A DNA stretch of 64,000 bases, from IMG/VR virus record IMGVR_UViG_3300030101_002616, positions 16,484 to 80,483 of that record. One strand, given 5' to 3'. Both the position numbers and the translations under genes were made by a program. Origin of the DNA: a virus. Under the pieces are notes generated by a model, which saw only the letters and a list, made by a program, of their open reading frames with translations, searched no databases and was not told the DNA's origin. Within the stretch, counting starts at the first letter, position 1, and each line of letters opens with the position of its first letter. Positions 51,287 to 64,000 of the stretch are shown piece by piece.

Positions 51287-54022
51287 TCACCAGTCTAGCC
51301 TGCCTTTAGCGTCCAGGTAAACCTTGATTTCTTTGATAAGATCTTGATCCAAATCTTCATCGCTATTAGGAGAGTATGATACTTCATCAATACAATCCAA
51401 TAATGTATGAACACCTTCAGACCATTCTTCAAGTTCATCAAACTTATCCATCAACTCTTGGTCTTGACCAACAGCTTCTGGTATGTCTAGTACAAATAAC
51501 TCACGACTCTTCTGCTGTATAGCAGCGGCGTCATCATTATCTTTGCAAAACTTGTGCATTTCCACAATCTTCCTGACCATAGGAAATATATCAGTCTGTT
51601 TAATCCACTGACTTGTTCTTACGTCTAGATTAGCTGCATTGTATACAGCTTCATACTTTTTAAACAAATCTGGATTAATGTCCTTAAGACAATATAAATA
51701 TGTCTTAGGTATTATAGCCTTCATTTTATCTGCAGTGTACCATTTAATTGCGTATTCATCCATAGTATATCCTCCATTAGGTGTTAGTTGTAAAAAGAAT
51801 TCATCAATGTGTTTAACATTAGAGTTCATACTAATGTGTTTAACATTGCTCTGTGAGACTCTGATAATCTGCGGCGTATCCCAATCAAAGTTAGTATTGT
51901 GATATACCGTACCATCATCTTTAGTAGTAGTAGTTGGTATTACATGTCGACTATTATCAAACCTAACAGCTGGTGTATCAAAGAAGAACACTCTGTCATC
52001 ATCTCCAGTTTGCCATCTCAGTATATCTTTATACACTTCATCCAATCTAGGAGCAAAAGGATGTATCATACCACAAGCTACCATCAGTTTCTCATCATCA
52101 GCTGCAGTACCATAGTAGGTAGTACGCTGAGTCTTCATAAGATCTTTTACCTTTGGCTCAATCTTATCTCTGATGTAACGGTGGTCACTTCCTGATGCAT
52201 GCCAATGCTTATCGTTATATCTAAAAGTGTATGCAACCATACGCTCTTCTATCTTACGACGTTCAGCTGGCGTGATGTTCTCGAACTGTGCAATCTCTTT
52301 AGCCTTAGTAATCTCATCTTTGTACTCTTCTAGCCACTCTTCATCTACCTCTATGTCGTCATAGTTACGACTGTGAGTAGACTCAGTAATTAGCTCAAGA
52401 ACTCTAGCGCGTTTAGCAAGTGCTTTCTTATTTGCTTTGACAGACTCAGCACTAACGACACTACTAGGCTCCCAGTTATCTACAGGCTTTATACAGATAA
52501 CAGGACCTTGACACTCGTGTATAAGGTACATATCTTTATACTTGCTATGATTCTCTTCGCCCATGATAAAGATATTATTCTCTCTCAACTGGCTGTAGTT
52601 CTCAATAGCAACTCTTTCAATAGTATCATCACCACTGTTGTAGTCTCTACTCTTACTTACAACCTCAACCTTCATACCTCTGAACAAAGCTTTTACAGAT
52701 TCATTCTTAAGTCTAGGGTCTGGGCCAAACTTAGGCTTGAGTTGTTCCTGATCAATGATATTAGATAGTCTACCAAGTACACTACCGCTGTCAGCTTTAG
52801 TCAAGACTTGCTTACAAGCTAGCAACCAAGACACAAAGTCTGTTTGCTTAAGCTCTTCTTGTACAATCTCGCTAGCTTCATCAGCAGCTGCCATAATAAC
52901 AGACTTGATGTAAGCTTTAGTATTCTCATTCCATATCACCTTCTCACGTGACGGCGTAACATCTACACCCTCTTGCAATACAATCTCTTCACCAGTTTCT
53001 GGGTCATTGATTACCTGTCTTGCAGGACATTTGAAAGCAATAGGTCCCCACATCTGCTGCATCTCCAACTCACGGAAGTCAACAAAGCCATAGTTAACAC
53101 CAGTTGGTGCACCTACATCCTTAGTCAACACAATGTGCGGTCTGCTAAACATATATGTATCAGAGATAATCAAGTTATCAGAGTTATGCATAATTGTTGG
53201 GTGAATATTCTCTTTCCTTTCATAGCCATCCTCTGCAATACGCTTGAACTTAATACTAGGCATATACATCAGCTGTTCTTCAACCGCATCACGATAGTCA
53301 CGTCTGTTATGTTTCTTCACACCAAACGATACTATAGTCTGATTCTTTGCATCAGTAGATACATAGTGCACTTTCGTTCCATCGCTAAGTACAACATGCG
53401 GATTAGGCTGACCGGCCTCTGGGTTAAATGCTGGTATAATAAAGTCTGTCTTGTAATTGTAACAGTTCATCTTGAATCTCTTACCATTGTGCACAGTTTC
53501 TATAGTATAAAAGTCTACACCAGTTGACAATGCAACCTTAGCACCAAGACCAAATGCACCAAAGTTCTCAGCCGTGTTACGCTTAGTTGAATAACCAAGT
53601 TCAAGCACACCTTCCAAACGACGTGCACCAATACCAACACCGTAATCATGTATAGTAACTACATCGCAGTATCCTGTTCCTTCATTCTCTGTGTATGTAA
53701 TTAGTACATCATTGTTCTCTGTGTCTAGGTGATCCAAGTCATAGTAACTTATATCAAAGTTACTATCATCATACTGTTCGCCGTGGCGTTCAATATAGTA
53801 GTCTTCAGCCTTTGCTTTACCACTTAGTATCTCTATAGCTATCTCTTTCTCACGCTGAGCGTCGGCACCATTGGTAGCCAACTCACGTACGGTAGAAGGA
53901 ATAGGTGTAGAATACTGTGTGGACTGCAAGATGTCAAAGACCATTTTCTCTGCGCCCTTGTTAATCTTCTTAGCAAGGCCTTCAGATCCTTTGATCTGCT
54001 TATCAATCGTTTTTATACTCAT
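51287..54022 (-). CDS. rIIA: rIIA-like protein with GHKL ATPase domain
   Basis: A 911-residue protein. Residues about 43-180 show a GHKL (histidine kinase/Hsp90-type) ATPase. The N box is TVRELATNGADAQ (Glu47, Asn51, Asp54). A second box is HDYGVGIGARRL near residue 116. The third is GYSTKRNTAENFGAFGLGAKVALS. The remainder is large and mixed, with a long charged helical region. The layout fits T4 rIIA, and the rIIB-like gene follows directly. The expected role is ATP-dependent action at the membrane in host-phage interplay; the exact function is unknown in crAss-like phages. It overlaps the upstream gene by 20 bases. Confidence 0.85.
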   Translation of the reverse strand: MSIKTIDKQIKGSEGLAKKINKGAEKMVFDILQSTQYSTPIPSTVRELATNGADAQREKEIAIEILSGKAKAEDYYIERHGEQYDDSNFDISYYDLDHLDTENNDVLITYTENEGTGYCDVVTIHDYGVGIGARRLEGVLELGYSTKRNTAENFGAFGLGAKVALSTGVDFYTIETVHNGKRFKMNCYNYKTDFIIPAFNPEAGQPNPHVVLSDGTKVHYVSTDAKNQTIVSFGVKKHNRRDYRDAVEEQLMYMPSIKFKRIAEDGYERKENIHPTIMHNSDNLIISDTYMFSRPHIVLTKDVGAPTGVNYGFVDFRELEMQQMWGPIAFKCPARQVINDPETGEEIVLQEGVDVTPSREKVIWNENTKAYIKSVIMAAADEASEIVQEELKQTDFVSWLLACKQVLTKADSGSVLGRLSNIIDQEQLKPKFGPDPRLKNESVKALFRGMKVEVVSKSRDYNSGDDTIERVAIENYSQLRENNIFIMGEENHSKYKDMYLIHECQGPVICIKPVDNWEPSSVVSAESVKANKKALAKRARVLELITESTHSRNYDDIEVDEEWLEEYKDEITKAKEIAQFENITPAERRKIEERMVAYTFRYNDKHWHASGSDHRYIRDKIEPKVKDLMKTQRTTYYGTAADDEKLMVACGMIHPFAPRLDEVYKDILRWQTGDDDRVFFFDTPAVRFDNSRHVIPTTTTKDDGTVYHNTNFDWDTPQIIRVSQSNVKHISMNSNVKHIDEFFLQLTPNGGYTMDEYAIKWYTADKMKAIIPKTYLYCLKDINPDLFKKYEAVYNAANLDVRTSQWIKQTDIFPMVRKIVEMHKFCKDNDDAAAIQQKSRELFVLDIPEAVGQDQELMDKFDELEEWSEGVHTLLDCIDEVSYSPNSDEDLDQDLIKEIKVYLDAKGRLDW

Positions 54023-54317: not shown

Positions 54318-54761
54318 TTAAAGTTGTTTAATTAATTCTATTGTTTGTAGTACCTGACCTTGGTTCTTAGGTAGGTATAGCACCGGAGGATTCTCCAACT
54401 GCATGAGGTGTTTCTTGAACATCTTCCATTTCAAAGGGAAGACATCATTTGCAAAACCTTTTACTTCTATAATCCACTTACCATTAGGATCTACAAAGTC
54501 AGGAGTATATGTAATATCTCTAACCTTGTACTCATTGTTAACATAGCCTTTTGTTTTGTGAGGCTCGTGACATTCAGCACTATAATGAAAACCTTCTTGT
54601 AAGATATACTTCTTCTTTTCATACAAAGATTTAATCTCTGCATCTTCTAGTTTCTTATACGTAAAAAGTTCAAGCTTAGACCTGAACTTAATACCTTTGT
54701 AAACCTTAGCGGTAGCGTTTCTTACTTTTTTGTTTTTTGGTTTTCGTGTGCGTCGCTTCAC
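54318..54761 (-). CDS. PD-(D/E)XK nuclease of DUF1064 type
   Basis: A 147-residue protein with a basic N-terminus, the FRSKLELFTYKKL helix (Glu31) and the nuclease core YTPDFVD (Asp88) with WIIEVKG (Glu99, Lys101). A following FPLKWKMFKKHL helix is typical of DUF1064 and T7 endonuclease I-like phage nucleases. The enzyme probably cleaves branched or foreign DNA during replication and recombination. It overlaps the primase gene by four bases (ATGA-type), which ties it to replication. Class is well supported by motifs; substrate unknown. Confidence 0.85.
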   Translation of the reverse strand: MKRRTRKPKNKKVRNATAKVYKGIKFRSKLELFTYKKLEDAEIKSLYEKKKYILQEGFHYSAECHEPHKTKGYVNNEYKVRDITYTPDFVDPNGKWIIEVKGFANDVFPLKWKMFKKHLMQLENPPVLYLPKNQGQVLQTIELIKQL

Positions 54762-55750
54762 AATTGTATGTCTATCAATGTTTGTAATCCTTCTGTTCGT
54801 TTAAAGTGCGCAGCATAATCTGATGGGTCTTTTAGTTTATACTCATCTGGTATAATTATATTACACATCGGATAATATTCTTTACAGATCTTAGTAGCCA
54901 TGGCTTGACCAGGATTACTTGGATTAGTAAAATCGTTATCATAAAATACTGCAACTTGTTTAAACCTTTCTTTAAGCTCAGTTACAACTTGCCGTCCTGG
55001 CAACTGCATTTCTGATTGCATGGCGATAGCGGGGATACCCATCTCGAAGAGACACATAACGTCTTTGAGACTTGATGTAATAATACAGAGATCGCCGCTT
55101 TTAGGTAGTTGATCATATCCTTGAATTTGTTTAGAGTTAGTATTGCTCATCCACTTTACTTCTTCGTAAGGTGAATAGATCTTATATTTGTTACCTATCT
55201 TATATGCATAGCTAAGCTTACATGTAAATCTACTGTCATTAATCCAGTAGTGAGAAATAGGCGTAACAGCAAACTTAATTAAAGTTTTCTTACTAATCAA
55301 GTATTGCGACCAAAACTTTGCATCTTTAAGCATCCAAGGCCTAGATTTCTTCTTAATTACAGTAACTTTCTTGTTTTCTACTCTAATATTAGAGCGGTAT
55401 CCAAGATACCCACGTGTAAAATCTATCTCTGCTTTCTTAGATCCTAGGTTCAAACCAAAATCAGTATCAATAATACGAAGAGCTGAGTAAAAAGAAACAT
55501 TGTATGTTGCCATAACATAGCCAAAACAATCAAATGTGTGTTCAGGATAAGCCCAATCTTTATACAAAAGCTTGCCTTTCCATAATACAATATTAACACC
55601 GGGCTTAGAGTCTTTACGTAACTCACTACAAAAAGGTTTACCAAGTTGTTTAAAAGAACTACAGTAGTATGCAAATATATCTACCTCACTTATTCTGGAA
55701 AGTATCATTTCTTTAGAGAGGTGTATCTCACTGTTTCTACTTCTAATCAT
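54758..55750 (-). CDS. Toprim-domain DNA primase
   Basis: A 330-residue protein. The first 120 residues resemble the zinc-binding/CHC2-type start of phage primases, in which a Cys (FCSEL), WKGKLLYKDWA and HTFDCFGYVMATY are seen. A middle region leads to a Toprim fold with ITSSLKDVMCL (224-234), then PAIAMQSE, and FYDND (Asp271, Asp273). The acidic residue that normally opens Toprim (E in EGxxD) is replaced by Ser, as in other phage primases with an SSLKD form. It probably synthesises primers with the DnaB-type helicase at 58654. It follows a strong terminator, so its transcription needs its own start or read-through. Confidence 0.8.
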   Translation of the reverse strand: MIRSRNSEIHLSKEMILSRISEVDIFAYYCSSFKQLGKPFCSELRKDSKPGVNIVLWKGKLLYKDWAYPEHTFDCFGYVMATYNVSFYSALRIIDTDFGLNLGSKKAEIDFTRGYLGYRSNIRVENKKVTVIKKKSRPWMLKDAKFWSQYLISKKTLIKFAVTPISHYWINDSRFTCKLSYAYKIGNKYKIYSPYEEVKWMSNTNSKQIQGYDQLPKSGDLCIITSSLKDVMCLFEMGIPAIAMQSEMQLPGRQVVTELKERFKQVAVFYDNDFTNPSNPGQAMATKICKEYYPMCNIIIPDEYKLKDPSDYAAHFKRTEGLQTLIDIQL

Positions 55751-57000: not shown

Positions 57001-57702
57001 TTAATCAATAAATATATTTGACCATTCTAGAGGCATGGTCTGGCCCTTTAAGTGATCGCAACGTGAGCCTGCAGTTACATCATCCAAAGAGTTAAATGAA
57101 ACCATAGTCTCATCATCTTCTCTGTAGATATAACCAATAGCATCTGCGTTTGCGCATGTGATAGACTTAATCTTACCAGTCAAGTCAAGATCCTTGGCAG
57201 CGACTTCTTTGCCTTTCTTTTCAAGCATCTTATCTTTTAGGTGACCAACTAGTATGACATGATCTGCCAACTTGTTTAGTCTATCAATCCATTTCTTGTA
57301 TGCAATACGTAAGTAAAGGTAGCCTGCACCATTAGGCAAAGATAATACAGATGCACCAGGATTCTTTTGTTCAAAGTTCTTACCCATAGGTGTAGCCATG
57401 TAGATTCTCTTTGCATCTTCTTCACACCACTCTTCGAGCTTAGTGATAGTGTCAATAGCGATATACTTGTATGGTCTGCCATCTTTCATAATTGCTTTTC
57501 CAACTTCAGTTAGTTCTGACAGATCATTGACCTGCACCTTCAGTGCATCAACCATATCTGAACCATCTTCCAAGTCGATAATCAAACAATCATCTAGTTG
57601 TGATAATGCTGTAGTCTTACCTATCTTAGGTGGACCATAGATTACCATGTTCTTTGGTGACTTGCGCGTCGCCTTTACTTTCTGTTTTGGTAATGTAATC
57701 AT
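57001..57702 (-). CDS. Sak4-like RecA-fold ATPase (AAA_24)
   Basis: A 233-residue protein with Walker A IYGPPKIGKTT (21-31), a strand carrying LIIDLEDGSD (40-49), Walker B YIAIDT (Asp84) and a later ADHVILVGHLKDK region. This is the typical AAA_24/Sak4 layout of phage single-strand annealing or recombination ATPases. Such proteins work with a cognate SSB, and a candidate SSB is encoded two genes downstream. It is separated by one base from the DnaB-type helicase gene. The class is well supported; recombination role by family. Confidence 0.85.
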   Translation of the reverse strand: MITLPKQKVKATRKSPKNMVIYGPPKIGKTTALSQLDDCLIIDLEDGSDMVDALKVQVNDLSELTEVGKAIMKDGRPYKYIAIDTITKLEEWCEEDAKRIYMATPMGKNFEQKNPGASVLSLPNGAGYLYLRIAYKKWIDRLNKLADHVILVGHLKDKMLEKKGKEVAAKDLDLTGKIKSITCANADAIGYIYREDDETMVSFNSLDDVTAGSRCDHLKGQTMPLEWSNIFID

Positions 57703-57703
57703 A

Positions 57704-58654
57704 TTAGTTTCTTTCTTTAATGTTAAACGTACTCATGTCTGCTTCATATCCAATCATACCAAGTAAACCATCACGATTCTTTTCCATGTGACATGCTAGT
57801 AACCCTTGTGGATTCTCTCCACAATATGTTTCTGTAATGCCATACAAATCATATGGTCTATTCAGTATCATAACAACATGCGCATCCTGACCAATAGAGT
57901 CACCACCAAACAAATCTGTTAGTAGTGGCTGATACTGGTTCTTAGCACGATGTTCTTGTTCTATGTTACGATTGAGCTGTGATAATAATATATTAATAAC
58001 TCCAAGTTTTGATTGCATCCACATACAACCCTTGGATATTGTATTAAGCCTACGTAATTCTGTTTCTTCATTACCACGTATCAAACGTGAATGGTCAAAC
58101 AGATTAATTACTGTGTGCTCTGGATGCTGATTAAATAAATCCTCATTTGTATTCATTATATACTCCATAGTACGAGGCACATTGTTGAAGTATATTGGAT
58201 AGTTGCCATACTTTTGTACCTTAGATGCATAAGTCTTGAAGTCTATGTCTGACAGCGGTGACTCCACCGACAATAGATCTGACATCTGTTTCTTTACATC
58301 TTTAGATGCGCTACGCATTACCTGTTGGTAACCGGGCATCTCAAAGGTCCAGTATAGTACTATTAATTTCTTAGCTTTGTTTGTATCTAGTACATCAAAG
58401 ATAAGTTGATTGCTAAATGCTGACTTGCCCACACCGGGACGGCCAGCTATCACATACATCTTGCCCTTTTGTAATCCACCTAGAAGATTCCTGTTTAGTC
58501 TTTTCCAAGACGTAGCTAGCACATTGCGCTGACCAAGCTTGGCCTGCTTTACAACTGCTATAGACTGATTGACAGCCTTATCTATCTTTTGAAACCCTCT
58601 AGTTTTGAATACATCAGAGCCGTCTTGTGATACGGTTTTCTGATTGTCCTGCAT
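57704..58654 (-). CDS. DnaB-type replicative helicase
   Basis: A 316-residue protein with the RecA-fold core of DnaB/gp4 helicases: Walker A GRPGVGKS (71-78), LIVLYWTFEMPGYQ, then VINLFDHSRLIRG, SQLNRNIEQEHRA and SIGQDAHVVMILNRP. The N-terminal DnaB domain is missing or reduced, giving a short form that is common in phages. It unwinds DNA ahead of the polymerase and probably works with the primase at 54758. It starts 41 bases inside the end of the preceding gene, so translation is coupled. Confidence 0.9.
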   Translation of the reverse strand: MQDNQKTVSQDGSDVFKTRGFQKIDKAVNQSIAVVKQAKLGQRNVLATSWKRLNRNLLGGLQKGKMYVIAGRPGVGKSAFSNQLIFDVLDTNKAKKLIVLYWTFEMPGYQQVMRSASKDVKKQMSDLLSVESPLSDIDFKTYASKVQKYGNYPIYFNNVPRTMEYIMNTNEDLFNQHPEHTVINLFDHSRLIRGNEETELRRLNTISKGCMWMQSKLGVINILLSQLNRNIEQEHRAKNQYQPLLTDLFGGDSIGQDAHVVMILNRPYDLYGITETYCGENPQGLLACHMEKNRDGLLGMIGYEADMSTFNIKERN

Positions 58655-59159
58655 TTTCGTCCATGTTTATGTATTTTTCCCAAGTATGATTGTTCAACCA
58701 TACCTCTAGCTGCTGCATATATTCTAGTTTACCGCGTTCTACCCGTAGTTGTACATTCAATAACTTAATTATCTTGTCGTGTACAAACTTTTTAGTGCCT
58801 ACGATTCTACTATACTTAGCTTTAGCTTTCTCATTTGATTTACAGTTAGGATCTGCTGCATGTAATATTCTGTACCCTCTGTTAGTTGATACCTTCATTG
58901 GATATGTACTAATTAGTTCTGCAAACATCTGATCAAAGTCACTAGAAAACAAATCTATAAACTCTTGGCGTATGATGTGCTTCTCTACACTATCACCAAG
59001 CTTTACATATCCTTTGGATTGTAAGTCATCCCAGTTAGGATTTAGTTTTAGTTTATCTAGAGTCTTGAAACCCTTTCTGTATATAGCATACAGTGCTAAA
59101 AAATCATCAGCACTGATGCCATTTTCAACCAATAAATTTACGTCAATTTGTAATTGCAT
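58614..59159 (-). CDS. Replication-initiation or helicase-loader-like protein
   Basis: A 181-residue protein. The first 60 residues have the winged-helix-like layout LVENGISADDFLALYAIYRK with a following NWDDLQSKGYVKLGD. The C-terminal end has LEVWLNNHTWEKYI, which recalls the final Trp-containing helix of phage replisome-organiser proteins. It directly precedes the DnaB-type helicase and overlaps it, which suits a helicase loader or initiator. There is no ATPase motif. The function is inferred from these hints and location. Confidence 0.6.
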   Translation of the reverse strand: MQLQIDVNLLVENGISADDFLALYAIYRKGFKTLDKLKLNPNWDDLQSKGYVKLGDSVEKHIIRQEFIDLFSSDFDQMFAELISTYPMKVSTNRGYRILHAADPNCKSNEKAKAKYSRIVGTKKFVHDKIIKLLNVQLRVERGKLEYMQQLEVWLNNHTWEKYINMDENAGQSENRITRRL

Positions 59160-59186: not shown

Positions 59187-60389
59187 CTAATTATCAAGTA
59201 ACCAGGTAACATTATCTAGTTTTCTAACACTACTTTTCAACCACTTTTCTTCCTGACTACCTTCTACATACAAGACATGTATTTTGCCTATCTTGCCTTC
59301 TTGGTAGCGTATGATTCTACCCACACGCTGTATCATAGTCAAAGCTTTACTGGTTAAACCACATATTACAGCCATAGTTGCATCAGCAACATCAAAGCCT
59401 TGGTTCAAAGCTTTAGTAGAGCATAGCACAGGCTTGTCGCCTGATCTAAAATCTGCTAACGCTTGTTCCTTTTGCTTCTTTGTCCTACCACTGTGGTATA
59501 TAGAAGAGAATGTTTCAGTAGCATCTGCAAGTCTATTTGTAAACTCGTTACTACCACCAAACACAAGTATCTTTTCTCCTATATTCTTGATAACAATCTT
59601 TTGTAGCTCTGCTACTTTGTTATCAGCATGATCCACTACAGCCTTACGAGCTCTAATAGATCTGTAAAACTGTGCAGCTGCAGCTTTGTCTGCATTGCTA
59701 GCAGTATGCTTACCTGATCCCATAATATGTTTAGCCCTGTCAAACGCATCAAACTGTCCAAGACAATACTTAGCATATACAAACGTATTGTTTGCTTTCT
59801 TATACTCTTGCTCTTCATCATCTGTTAGTTTAACAGGTATACATATAATCTGATACGGTGACACTAGTCCCAGCTCTACACATTTATCAAGTGATATTTT
59901 GTACACAGTAGGAGCAAGACCAAATAGTATCTCTTTGTATTCAAACTCCTCTGGTAGTGTAGCAGTCATACACAGTATCCTGTCCCAAGTATTGTTCTCA
60001 AAGAACTTACGATACTCAGGTGATAGACCTAAATGTATTTCGTCACATACAACTACATGATAGTGTTTATTCTCTAGTTTATACGCAGAAGCATAACATA
60101 GAATATCAACACGATCTAGTATATGTTCATAACCCCACTTGATAAACTCTTCTTTGAACTGCTCTTGCAACTGATTAGTAGGAACTAGTACTAGTCCTTT
60201 AGCATCAGTATTGGTATCCAAAGACTTGCCAACAGCAATAACACCACACCTAGACTTGCCGAACCCTGTACCAGCAATAATACTACCAGTAAACTTAGAG
60301 TTAGCCCAAGCATTAATAGCTTTCTTCTGTTCTTCATCTTTTACTTTAATAAGATTATTCATCTCTATATCTATCTGGATCTGGCTCAT
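59187..60389 (-). CDS. SF2 DEAD/H-type helicase
   Basis: A 400-residue protein with SF2 motifs in order: Q-like start, Walker A AGTGFGKS (39-46), motif Ia VLVPTNQLQEQF, motif II CDEIH (Asp116-His119), motif III MTATLP, and, in the second domain, LVFGGSNEF, STKALNQGFDV and QRVGRIIRYQ (motif VI). It is a UvrB/RAD25-like phage helicase in its general layout. Probable roles are branch migration or repair during replication. It overlaps the small gene upstream by 35 bases. Enzyme class is secure. Confidence 0.92.
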   Translation of the reverse strand: MSQIQIDIEMNNLIKVKDEEQKKAINAWANSKFTGSIIAGTGFGKSRCGVIAVGKSLDTNTDAKGLVLVPTNQLQEQFKEEFIKWGYEHILDRVDILCYASAYKLENKHYHVVVCDEIHLGLSPEYRKFFENNTWDRILCMTATLPEEFEYKEILFGLAPTVYKISLDKCVELGLVSPYQIICIPVKLTDDEEQEYKKANNTFVYAKYCLGQFDAFDRAKHIMGSGKHTASNADKAAAAQFYRSIRARKAVVDHADNKVAELQKIVIKNIGEKILVFGGSNEFTNRLADATETFSSIYHSGRTKKQKEQALADFRSGDKPVLCSTKALNQGFDVADATMAVICGLTSKALTMIQRVGRIIRYQEGKIGKIHVLYVEGSQEEKWLKSSVRKLDNVTWLLDN

Positions 60390-60633
60390 AGTCTTTATAG
60401 TTTTCTTCTAGTATACCTTCAAGTTCATTCTTATCAAACTCATCAAAGCCTGTCATAAAATGTAGAATGTCTACCTTTATTAATTTGCCGTTGGCATCAT
60501 TTAAGTTTACCCACACAGCGTTGATTGTAGCACCACCCTGATAACCTGTACCATTATAATCTAATTCAGGTGAGTCATACTCATAATCAACTTGGACTGT
60601 GTATCCATTTTCTAATTCTAGTTCATGTATCAT
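60355..60633 (-). CDS. Small acidic protein of unknown function
   Basis: A 92-residue, strongly acidic protein with a beta-rich first half (LENGYTVQVDYEYDSPELDY) and a helical acidic end (FDEFDKNELEGILEENYKDY). No motif is recognised. It overlaps both the DnaA-like gene (4 bases) and the helicase (35 bases), which shows it belongs to the same translational unit. Acidic small proteins in phage replication units may mimic DNA or bind helicases, but there is no direct evidence here. Confidence 0.65.
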   Translation of the reverse strand: MIHELELENGYTVQVDYEYDSPELDYNGTGYQGGATINAVWVNLNDANGKLIKVDILHFMTGFDEFDKNELEGILEENYKDYEPDPDRYRDE

Positions 60634-61067
60634 GATAATAATTCTGTTACTTTATTAATTTGTTCTTTTAGTTCTGCATTCTCTTGCTCAAGATAGTCTA
60701 CACGAGCGGCAAAAGTTTTAATCATATCATCCTTGTCATTACAATCACCCATACCTTTGACTCCCACAGCTGTAGCACATATATTGAAAAACTCTTCATA
60801 TGCTTTATCTACATCCATAAGATCAGAGTGTACCTTGAATGCATGCAACACGGTAGTGTGATCTCTACGGAACACAGCAGCATTGACAATAGAACTGTAG
60901 TTTAACTTATCATTAATAAGCACCATACATATACGTCTAGCTGCAACCACTTCGCCATTTCTAGTTTTACCTCTAATTTTACTGATAGGGACTTCAGTAA
61001 GTCTAGATACAGTTGCAAGTATCCTTGCCACATTTGCATCTAATTTATATAATTTTACTTTTCCCAT
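60630..61067 (-). CDS. Stand-alone DnaA domain IV protein
   Basis: A 145-residue protein. Residues about 10-85 match the C-terminal DNA-binding domain of DnaA: a VPISKIRGKTRNGEVVAARRI region and the DnaA signature FRRDHTTVLHA (66-76). The AAA+ ATPase part of DnaA is absent. The C-terminal end (about 110-145) is a coiled coil (DYLEQENAELKEQINKVTEL). It probably binds DnaA-box-like sites in the phage or host origin, either to start phage replication or to compete with host DnaA. It overlaps the polymerase gene by 13 bases. Confidence 0.88.
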   Translation of the reverse strand: MGKVKLYKLDANVARILATVSRLTEVPISKIRGKTRNGEVVAARRICMVLINDKLNYSSIVNAAVFRRDHTTVLHAFKVHSDLMDVDKAYEEFFNICATAVGVKGMGDCNDKDDMIKTFAARVDYLEQENAELKEQINKVTELLS

Positions 61068-62944
61068 GATTTACTAATATTTGTGTCTGCTTTCAACAGA
61101 CCGTTAGTTACTACCTCAAGAGCTGCTTGCTCCATCAGTCTTGTCATTTCAACTACCCACTCCTGTGCATAGTCCTCTCTACATATAGTATCCACCTGGT
61201 CATGCACTGTCATAACTATCTTTACAGGTGCATTATGCAACTTGATAAAGTCTCTGATAAGTATCATTGCTTTCTTAGTCATGTCAGCTGATGCGCCTTG
61301 TATAGGTGTATTCTTACTAGCACGTTCTATACTACCAAGTTCAAATGCTTGACTCTTCTCTTGATATATACGTGGGTACCATGTAGGAAACCAACGACGT
61401 CTATTGTAAGGTGGAAATGTTTTGATATAACCATACTTTTTACCAAAGGTTCCTAGTTTGTCTAAGAAACCACCGATAGCTGGAAAGGCATCAAAGTATT
61501 TATCAATCAAAACTTCAGCTGCTTTAGTATTTATATCAAGAGTATCTGCAAGTTTGTGAGGCCCCATACCATAGGCTAGTCCAAAGTTAATTGTCTTAAC
61601 ATTTGTACGTAGCCTACCGTGTCTGGGACACTTACATTTACTTTTGTTTATCATATAACTACAATTATCTTCAGCGGCATCCGCCCACTCTTGTCCGTAT
61701 ACAAGGTCAGCACATACACTATGTAAGTCTTGTCCTTGTTGAAGAGCTTTTATCCATACAGGGTCTTGACTACCGAATGCAATTACATTAAGTTCTTGAG
61801 AAGAGTAGTCAGAAGAAACGAAGCACCAGCCATTAGGAGCCAGAAAACAATTACGGAACTTATTATCCGCAGGTATCTGTTGCATGTTTGGCTTCTTGGA
61901 TGCGACACGTCCAGTGTCAAGTATTTGATTGAATTGCGTATGAATCTTACCATCGCTTGATACAAATTTAAAGAAGTCTTTACCGTAAGAAGTAGCCAGC
62001 TTCATCTTTTCTTTGTACTTAACATACAAGTCTATGATCTTATGCTGACGTCTGTACTTGTACATCTTCTTACCGTTAACGTCTTCTAGTTCAGGGACTA
62101 GTTTTTGAAATACTTTTAGAACTTGTGTAGGGCTAGTCCATTTGACCCCAACTTTACGTAGCTCTTCTTGAGGCGTAAACAAGTCACCTTGAACATGAGA
62201 TAACACAAAGCACGACAACTCTGGGACGATTAATACCAGGTTATCTAATTCATCTCTCATGTCCAAAGCTTCTTGTTCGCTTGCTCGTGCAATGACCTCC
62301 CAAGCATCCTTGTCAATATCAATACCATTGTATTCAATATCAGAGAATGCTAACACTGCACGATTTTCAAGTTCTACCACACGTTGTAGTTTAAACTCTT
62401 GTATTTTTGGGAGCTGCAGCTTACGTAGCTTACATAGATACTCTACATCTTTGGCACCGTATACTATCTGGTCATCACGATAGGCTTCACCGGATAACCC
62501 TATAAATTGGTTTCTGATTTCCTTATTCAATTCTACATTTAAGTAGCGTTTACAGAGGTCTTTCAGTCCATAACCTATGTGACGACCACAAGATAGTATT
62601 CGCTCTACCAAAAACGTATCGTAAACTCCATCACATTCTATGCCTGACCACTTCTTAATAAACTTGTAGTCAAACTTAGCATTGTGAAATATCTTTGTTA
62701 TAGCTGGTGATTCTAGTATGTTCTTCAAAGGACTGATGTCTATGAATCTAGTGTCAATAACAAACTGTTGATGTTCGTCACCAATCTGAAACATAATCAT
62801 CTTCTTGCATGTAAAGTCAAAACCTTCTGTTTCTGTGTCTACACCTAGAACCTCTTTGTTGTGGCAGTACTTGACCACGTCTTTAATAGTACCTAGTTTA
62901 TACGAGTCACTTAGACTCGTTGTCTTTGTTATTAATGTAATCAT
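61055..62944 (-). CDS. polA: Family A DNA polymerase with 3'-5' exonuclease
   Basis: A 629-residue protein. The exonuclease has GVDTETEG (Asp36, Glu38), HNAKFDY (Asp92) and YGAKDVEYL (Asp166). The polymerase has motif A DYSSQELN (Asp379), motif B with Lys450 and Tyr458 in RTNVKTINFGLAYG, and motif C VHDQVD (Asp582). In motif C the usual acidic second residue is Gln583. A Cys/His cluster (Cys428, Cys437, Cys439, His442) lies between motifs A and B. There is no 5' nuclease domain; the gene at 49945 supplies that function. It is the main replicative polymerase. The start overlaps the upstream gene by 38 bases. Confidence 0.95.
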   Translation of the reverse strand: MITLITKTTSLSDSYKLGTIKDVVKYCHNKEVLGVDTETEGFDFTCKKMIMFQIGDEHQQFVIDTRFIDISPLKNILESPAITKIFHNAKFDYKFIKKWSGIECDGVYDTFLVERILSCGRHIGYGLKDLCKRYLNVELNKEIRNQFIGLSGEAYRDDQIVYGAKDVEYLCKLRKLQLPKIQEFKLQRVVELENRAVLAFSDIEYNGIDIDKDAWEVIARASEQEALDMRDELDNLVLIVPELSCFVLSHVQGDLFTPQEELRKVGVKWTSPTQVLKVFQKLVPELEDVNGKKMYKYRRQHKIIDLYVKYKEKMKLATSYGKDFFKFVSSDGKIHTQFNQILDTGRVASKKPNMQQIPADNKFRNCFLAPNGWCFVSSDYSSQELNVIAFGSQDPVWIKALQQGQDLHSVCADLVYGQEWADAAEDNCSYMINKSKCKCPRHGRLRTNVKTINFGLAYGMGPHKLADTLDINTKAAEVLIDKYFDAFPAIGGFLDKLGTFGKKYGYIKTFPPYNRRRWFPTWYPRIYQEKSQAFELGSIERASKNTPIQGASADMTKKAMILIRDFIKLHNAPVKIVMTVHDQVDTICREDYAQEWVVEMTRLMEQAALEVVTNGLLKADTNISKSWEK

Positions 62945-63686: not shown

Positions 63687-63998
63687 CTAGTTTACTATCT
63701 CTCCTGTTGCAACATCAACTTTCTGAATAGTAGGACTTTGCACTGGTGCTGTATCAGCCTTCAAGTACACATCTACTGGCTCGTTGAATACAATAGAGGA
63801 ACGAGTGAATATGTATTCACCGTTGTGTAGAATAAACTCTCCATCTCTACCCTTACGCTTAGCAGTGGTATTAATGTTAGCTCTTTGCCATTCAGTAGGC
63901 TCAGTAGTTTCTACAATTTGAACTCGTAATGGGAACTCCTGTCCTTCAAAAGAAGCAATAGGATTAAGAACATTTACGACAAGTATTTCGTTGCCCAT
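63687..63998 (-). CDS. Small beta-rich protein of unknown function
   Basis: A 103-residue protein with an ATG at 63998, 2 bases from the window edge. A longer form starting outside the window cannot be excluded. The sequence is beta-rich with FEGQEFPLRVQIVET, a basic RANINTTAKRKGRDGEFILH stretch and a hydrophobic FTRSSIVF strand. No motif is recognised. It is followed by a strong terminator, so it is the last gene of a separate transcription unit. Confidence 0.55.
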   Translation of the reverse strand: MGNEILVVNVLNPIASFEGQEFPLRVQIVETTEPTEWQRANINTTAKRKGRDGEFILHNGEYIFTRSSIVFNEPVDVYLKADTAPVQSPTIQKVDVATGEIVN

Positions 63999-64000
63999 AT

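Follow-up and report, generated by a model that had tools for sequence, protein, structure and literature searches.

What use might a phage make of the DNA-reading end of DnaA when it lacks the ATPase of DnaA? The question is raised by a gene at positions 60630-61067 (minus strand) of a 64,000-nucleotide stretch, hereafter the window, which corresponds to positions 16484-80483 of the 80,483-base viral record IMGVR_UViG_3300030101_002616 from IMG/VR (L026). The gene encodes a protein of 145 residues in which a DnaA domain IV is followed by a predicted leucine zipper, and it lies in an operon of replication genes, directly behind that for the phage DNA polymerase.

A DnaA domain IV joined to a predicted leucine zipper

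The open reading frame (ORF) begins with ATG, and residues 14-78 of its product (window 60834-61028, minus strand, as derived from the ORF) match the Pfam family PF08299, Bac_DnaA_C, scoring 52.2 bits (E 6.5e-14) where the family cut-off is 31.5. PF08299 occurs once in the record, and likewise once in each of 12 records carrying relatives. By sequence, the closest solved structure is 1j1v (E 1.6e-5), which shows Escherichia coli DnaA domain IV together with its box. An AlphaFold2 model of the single chain, built from window and IMG/VR proteins, has a mean predicted local distance difference test score (pLDDT) of 80.7, with residues 11-100 at 86-96 and the C-terminal helix at about 69-80; it superimposes on 1j1v with a template modelling score of 0.92 by target length and a root mean square deviation of 1.1, and its 12 top structure matches are DnaA in every case. 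Judged by sequence and model, the ORF carries a true DnaA domain IV, as had been proposed in a preliminary description made from the DNA letters, and the signature RDHTTVLHA that was pointed out there is present in the recognition helix, at residues 68-76 (window 60866-60840, minus strand).

The same description had a coiled coil attached to this domain, which can now be specified as a regular leucine zipper. In the predicted helix of residues 112-144 (window 60636-60734, minus strand) the a/d heptad register is unbroken, running through I116, F119, V123, L126, N130, L133, I137, V140 and L144, and the register, with Asn130 at a core position, is kept in 25 of 29 distinct rows of two family alignments, the register anchor not being located in the four distant rows (L050-L053). 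Pfam matches to DivIC, HALZ and bZIP_1 on the zipper stretch are all below their cut-offs. Leucine at the d positions together with asparagine at one a position typifies zippers of two parallel strands, and, because of the a/d register with its conserved asparagine, the protein is predicted to form a parallel homodimer via its C terminus.

The absence of an ATPase, likewise part of the preliminary description, was borne out. The DnaA AAA+ domain (PF00308) was found in none of four records searched at E <= 1, i.e. the whole phage record and three long relatives, whereas all 14 control genomes matched. DnaA domain I, which binds DnaB, was not seen in the 145-residue protein, where PF08299 is the sole match above cut-off, the rest of the record not having been searched for it.

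The reading that we favour, and to which we would give about an even chance, is that the protein recognises the origin or organises the replisome as a dimer, with a zipper in place of the ATP-driven assembly of DnaA. The protein would be a phage-encoded, sequence-specific, double-stranded DNA-binding dimer, in which DnaA domain IV recognises the target sequence while the C-terminal zipper joins two subunits, so replacing the ATP-dependent assembly of full DnaA. The dimer would mark the phage replication origin and organise the replisome there, including the phage DnaB, primase and PolA, with a 181-residue protein of the same operon as a possible loader. It would thus act in the manner of O-type or iteron-binding initiators, without ATP-driven melting of its own.

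Coupling to polA and conservation of the gene

The gene is preceded by polA, encoding a family A DNA polymerase with a 3'-5' exonuclease (61055-62944; Pfam and PHROG), the end of which overlaps it by 13 bases. The genes given with coordinates in this paragraph all lie on the minus strand. The preliminary description had placed the DnaA-domain gene between the polymerase and a helicase; the overlap with polA agrees with this, and on the other side an ORF for a 92-residue protein (60355-60633) intervenes before the gene for an SF2-type DNA helicase (59187-60389; Pfam and PHROG). The 92-residue protein has no Pfam or PHROG match and is present in nine of 11 longer neighbourhoods. Beyond the SF2 helicase come the 181-residue protein, a possible helicase loader or partner (58614-59159; at E 3.7e-4 it weakly resembles phrog_270, 'replication initiation protein'), a DnaB-type replicative helicase (57704-58654; Pfam and PHROG), a Sak4-like AAA ATPase (57001-57702), which by Pfam, PHROG and the PF00308 search is not a DnaA AAA+ protein, and a DNA primase (54758-55750; phrog_12622). 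Further on, at window 51287-54022, also on the minus strand, lies the gene for a 911-residue protein, the start of which, by eye, resembles what we take to be a GHKL-type ATPase, perhaps one like T4 rIIA.

IMG/VR scans yielded 24 relatives with the protein as query and 39, including those 24, with an alignment as query. A total of 47 loci was examined, 33 relative loci holding both polA and the DnaA-domain gene; these are not independent, e.g. L012-L017 are near-identical and L001 is identical to the window over the compared genes except three. In 32 of the 33 the DnaA-domain gene is downstream of polA in the same direction, with an aligned overlap as in the window in 30, and with a 100-base gap in two (L010 and L022). 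At L048:6001-6408 the gene has been relocated to between dnaB and sak4, still within the replication operon. The downstream order of SF2 helicase, 181-residue protein, dnaB and sak4 is kept wherever the contig extends far enough.

Across 11 records with long neighbourhoods, identity to the window is 72-90% for the DnaA-domain protein, compared with 76-95% for PolA, 77-94% for the SF2 helicase and 72-99% for DnaB, some DnaB matches being partial. The products of small ORFs are more variable (40-94% for one of 73 residues, 52-89% for one of 122 and 30-65% for one of 77), with the exception of a 62-residue ORF (92-100%). The ratio of nonsynonymous to synonymous substitution rates (dN/dS) is 0.04-0.16 for the whole gene in 13 simple pairwise comparisons, and 0.02-0.12 for its helix-turn-helix (HTH) in the 11 of these where it could be computed. 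The gene is under purifying selection and behaves as a replication gene, evolving slightly faster than the polymerase.

Translational coupling with polA might also be expected of a polymerase accessory, clamp-like or end-binding, that binds DNA largely unspecifically and uses the DnaA fold as a grip. This we consider very improbable. The base-contact residues do differ in distant members, including L044, which has KSHCT at the signature; however, the recognition helix is intact and, from the HTH ratios above, strongly constrained.

The phage and the distribution of the gene

The final 100 bases of the record (window 63901-64000) repeat its first 100 (L026:1-100), the penultimate base being the only one to differ; because of this end repeat, a closed phage genome of about 80.4 kb is probable. 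A strict overlap test of the record ends failed. The large terminase subunit (TerL) is 40% identical over 99% to that of the crAss-like phage cr115_1, and PHROG matches for portal, capsid, GroES and DNA-binding proteins fit a crAss-like phage. The features by which Crassvirales are recognised, i.e. crAss-type terminase, portal and capsid, an IHF-type protein, and DnaB, primase and PolA, are all found, by the similarity of TerL and by PHROG matches. The phage is assigned from its gene content as an environmental, crAss-like one, and a putative Bacteroidota host follows from its order alone (PMC10136315, available part).

Neither PF08299 nor the family profile matched in 14 described crAss-like genomes (12 Crassvirales and two Fipvunavirus, picked out of 157 records whose terminase is related), both positive controls being matched. 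Since it is absent from these 14, the DnaA-domain gene appears to be a trait of the present lineage. A profile scan of bacterial genome contigs gave 12 pattern matches and no relatives, and the searches made turned up no isolate of the lineage. Two records labelled as phage, MT835965.1 (L054) and OR846603.1 (L055), code for complete DnaA proteins, AAA+ domain included, and were not counted towards a spread among phages; both look like bacterial contigs. On other viral contigs (L051:5848-6414, L052 and L053) an HTH like that of DnaA domain IV is joined to a DUF4406 domain, which is nucleoside deoxyribosyltransferase-like, the PF08299 score for L051 being 30.7 bits, slightly below the cut-off.

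DNA recognition residues

R36, R44 and H70 of the phage protein are invariant in all 20 rows of our alignment, in which they are paired with R399, R407 and H434 of E. coli DnaA. The neighbouring T435 of the E. coli protein contacts specific bases (PMC9638019, in the part available). The residue aligned with it in 24 close relatives is alanine (RDHAT) in 18, serine (RDHST) in five and threonine (RDHTT) in one, the last being an identical copy of the phage protein, so that the exact RDHTT is rare within its own family. Altered DNA specificity, as might be read from alanine or serine in place of T435, was considered and dropped, since in 75 complete DnaA C termini, most of which belong to Bacteroidota according to their record titles and a few to other phyla, the same position is alanine in 34, serine in 25 and threonine in 15 (unreadable in one, L109). 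Because all three residues are common there, the signature residues of the family appear simply Bacteroidota-like.

Such likeness to the host type would suit the other role suggested in the preliminary description, the blocking of host origin firing. As a decoy or competitor, the protein would sit on DnaA boxes at the host oriC or at the dnaA promoter and thereby halt host replication: the signature residues are within the host range, domain IV is 32-39% identical to the best-scoring host-type DnaA domains compared, and boxes are few on the phage DNA. We nevertheless judge this role improbable. The gene overlaps polA, keeps its position in the operon, is strongly constrained and evolves slowly, all of which weighs against mere host takeover, and the scarcity of boxes, on closer inspection of near-matches, is not peculiar to them. 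One-mismatch boxes number 83 in the window against 109 +- 10 expected, which is equalled by the shortage of control patterns (70, 78 and 99), and the idea that box depletion betrays a decoy aimed at the host was rejected.

DnaA boxes and the candidate origin

The box used was the E. coli-type consensus, TTATNCACA, which may differ from that of the true host. Exact copies number three in the window (4.7 expected) and one in the remaining part of the record (1.3 expected), with 0-4 in each of 10 records carrying relatives. The preliminary description had proposed that the protein may recruit the replisome to DnaA boxes and that clusters of them be sought across the genome; TTATNCACA is neither enriched nor clustered anywhere in the record, and for an E. 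coli-type box this proposal fails. What stands is the replication role as such, as the best reading.

Outside the window, one-mismatch boxes number 33 in 16.5 kb against 27.7 expected, and eight of them inside 1 kb equal the best of 30 shuffles. In the divergent stretch at record positions 1167-2777, which includes the skew minimum, there are 10, none exact, against 3.0 +- 1.8, a count reached in 0 of 200 shuffles. The cumulative GC skew is at its lowest in the gap between divergent genes, at record position 2350, and peaks at window 47168, where gene blocks converge.

A conserved structured RNA lies beside the skew minimum, in the divergent gap upstream of groES (L026:2408-2673, plus strand, outside the window). 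Over 19 distinct sequences it has 64 consensus pairs with 99.6% of cells paired; 21 pairs are changed on both sides, compared with 12.1 +- 1.8 in shuffles (0/500), and at most four are so changed when the partner is slid. Further pair types are lower than in shuffles (30 vs 35). The RNA has no Rfam match at E <= 1 and none in described phages by blastn, and an exact 38-base core of it is present in 31 IMG/VR contigs. Directly upstream is what we take to be a Bacteroidota-type -7 box, which suggests that the RNA has its own promoter. A second non-coding stretch between ORFs, at L026:1340-1560, has short complementary segments by eye and might be another structured RNA.

An origin in this gap would allow a more specific form of the favoured reading, which we put forward tentatively and as rather unlikely in its entirety: an ATP-independent DnaA-domain initiator, dimerised by its zipper, that takes the place of a RepL- or O-type initiator at the divergent gap, where the structured RNA might supply a primer or a means of control.

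Several points weigh against origin recognition by the DnaA-domain protein. The skew tracks gene direction as well, for which reason the origin position derived from it is suggestive only. The enrichment of near-boxes around the skew minimum is no more than a hint of an origin there, since the counting in that stretch followed the discovery of the cluster; furthermore, it is common to only two of seven relatives, the corresponding stretches giving p values of 0.01, 0.02, 0.195, 0.515, 0.675, 0.76 and 0.94. Neither a DnaA-box array nor iterons were found near the candidate origin, where the only repeats are AT-rich and of low complexity. The candidate loader has no solved relative (best E 0.14), and its model, with a pLDDT of 57.8, is too poor for a fold search. 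Computation shows the fold, the missing ATPase, the coupling to polA, the conservation and the purifying selection, and the dimer is a strong inference; the contacts with DnaB, primase and the 181-residue protein, like the target site and the position of the origin, are inferred only. Finally, a role in transcription fits the same facts.

Such a role, the strongest rival, would be that of a GafA-like dimeric transcription regulator, with DnaA-type HTH and zipper, acting at phage promoters, e.g. in the divergent gap; its production together with the replication proteins would make late expression follow replication. HTHs paired by a zipper are a regulator-like layout, and the divergent gap does contain a promoter-like conserved sequence, a call that leans on a motif which we take to be that of Bacteroidota promoters. 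A DnaA-like HTH does this very job in GafA (PMC9638019, available part). However, the GafA-type second domain is lacking, DUF6456 not being among the Pfam matches of the protein at E <= 0.1, and a motif repeated at several phage promoters was not found, one region having been searched. A regulator, which we hold to be possible though doubtful, also accords poorly with a gene that overlaps polA and keeps its position among the replication genes.

Relationship to known systems

The phage protein shares with bacterial DnaA domain IV (1j1v, Bacteroidota type) the fold, the signature helix and the minor-groove arginine. It differs from bacterial DnaA in lacking AAA+ and in having a zipper, and the phage genome in lacking a DnaA-box cluster.

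Isolated DnaA domain IV proteins are annotated in other phages, i.e. Pelagibacter HTVC034P and HTVC010P, Tenacibaculum Gundel_1, Olleya Harreka_1 and Flavobacterium FspS phages, several of them as replication initiation proteins. The five that were examined are of 112-177 residues, with Bac_DnaA_C as the sole Pfam domain above cut-off in four and slightly under it in the fifth. Unlike in the 145-residue protein, the domain forms the C terminus of the two Pelagibacter phage proteins, and a comparable zipper was seen in none of the five sequences. In the stretches of 4-5 kb around them, the genes do not adjoin a polymerase gene; that of Gundel_1 is followed by two replication genes. 'DnaA' is listed among the proteins of all HTVC010P-related genomes (PMC6811365, in part), and in Bacillus phage Pony a protein is annotated as a 'DnaA-like replication initiator' (PMC3853050, in part). 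Isolated DnaA domain IV in phages is thus already known by annotation. Among the literature matches listed there is neither a study of what such a lone domain does in a phage nor a form of it that is fused to a zipper and coupled to polA in crAss-like phages.

Outside phages, a DnaA-like HTH is used apart from DnaA in GafA of Rhodobacterales and Hyphomicrobiales and in small DnaA-like genes adjacent to that of GafA; by contrast with the phage protein, GafA is a transcription activator with a second, sigma-like domain, and a zipper is not described in the available part of the source (PMC9638019). REP-associated tyrosine transposases with a Bac_DnaA_C tail are a case of a mobile element borrowing DnaA domain IV, and the repeats flanking them do not resemble DnaA boxes (PMC6006769, available part). 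They differ in that the domain is fused to a HUH nuclease and is not part of a replication operon.

Among crAss-like phages, the initiator of p-crAssphage is RepL (PMC10136315, available part), while a replisome organizer and phage O occur in others (PMC7886860). These have the role proposed here for the DnaA-domain protein, but, by their descriptions, belong to different protein families. 'DnaA' occurs zero times in PMC7886860 and in the available part of PMC10136315, and was not found in the text of PMC6813254.

If the protein binds the phage origin, locating its binding site would locate that origin, and the protein that marks it would be made together with the polymerase. If this reading is right, the DNA-reading end of DnaA may be reusable without its ATPase, when paired by a zipper.
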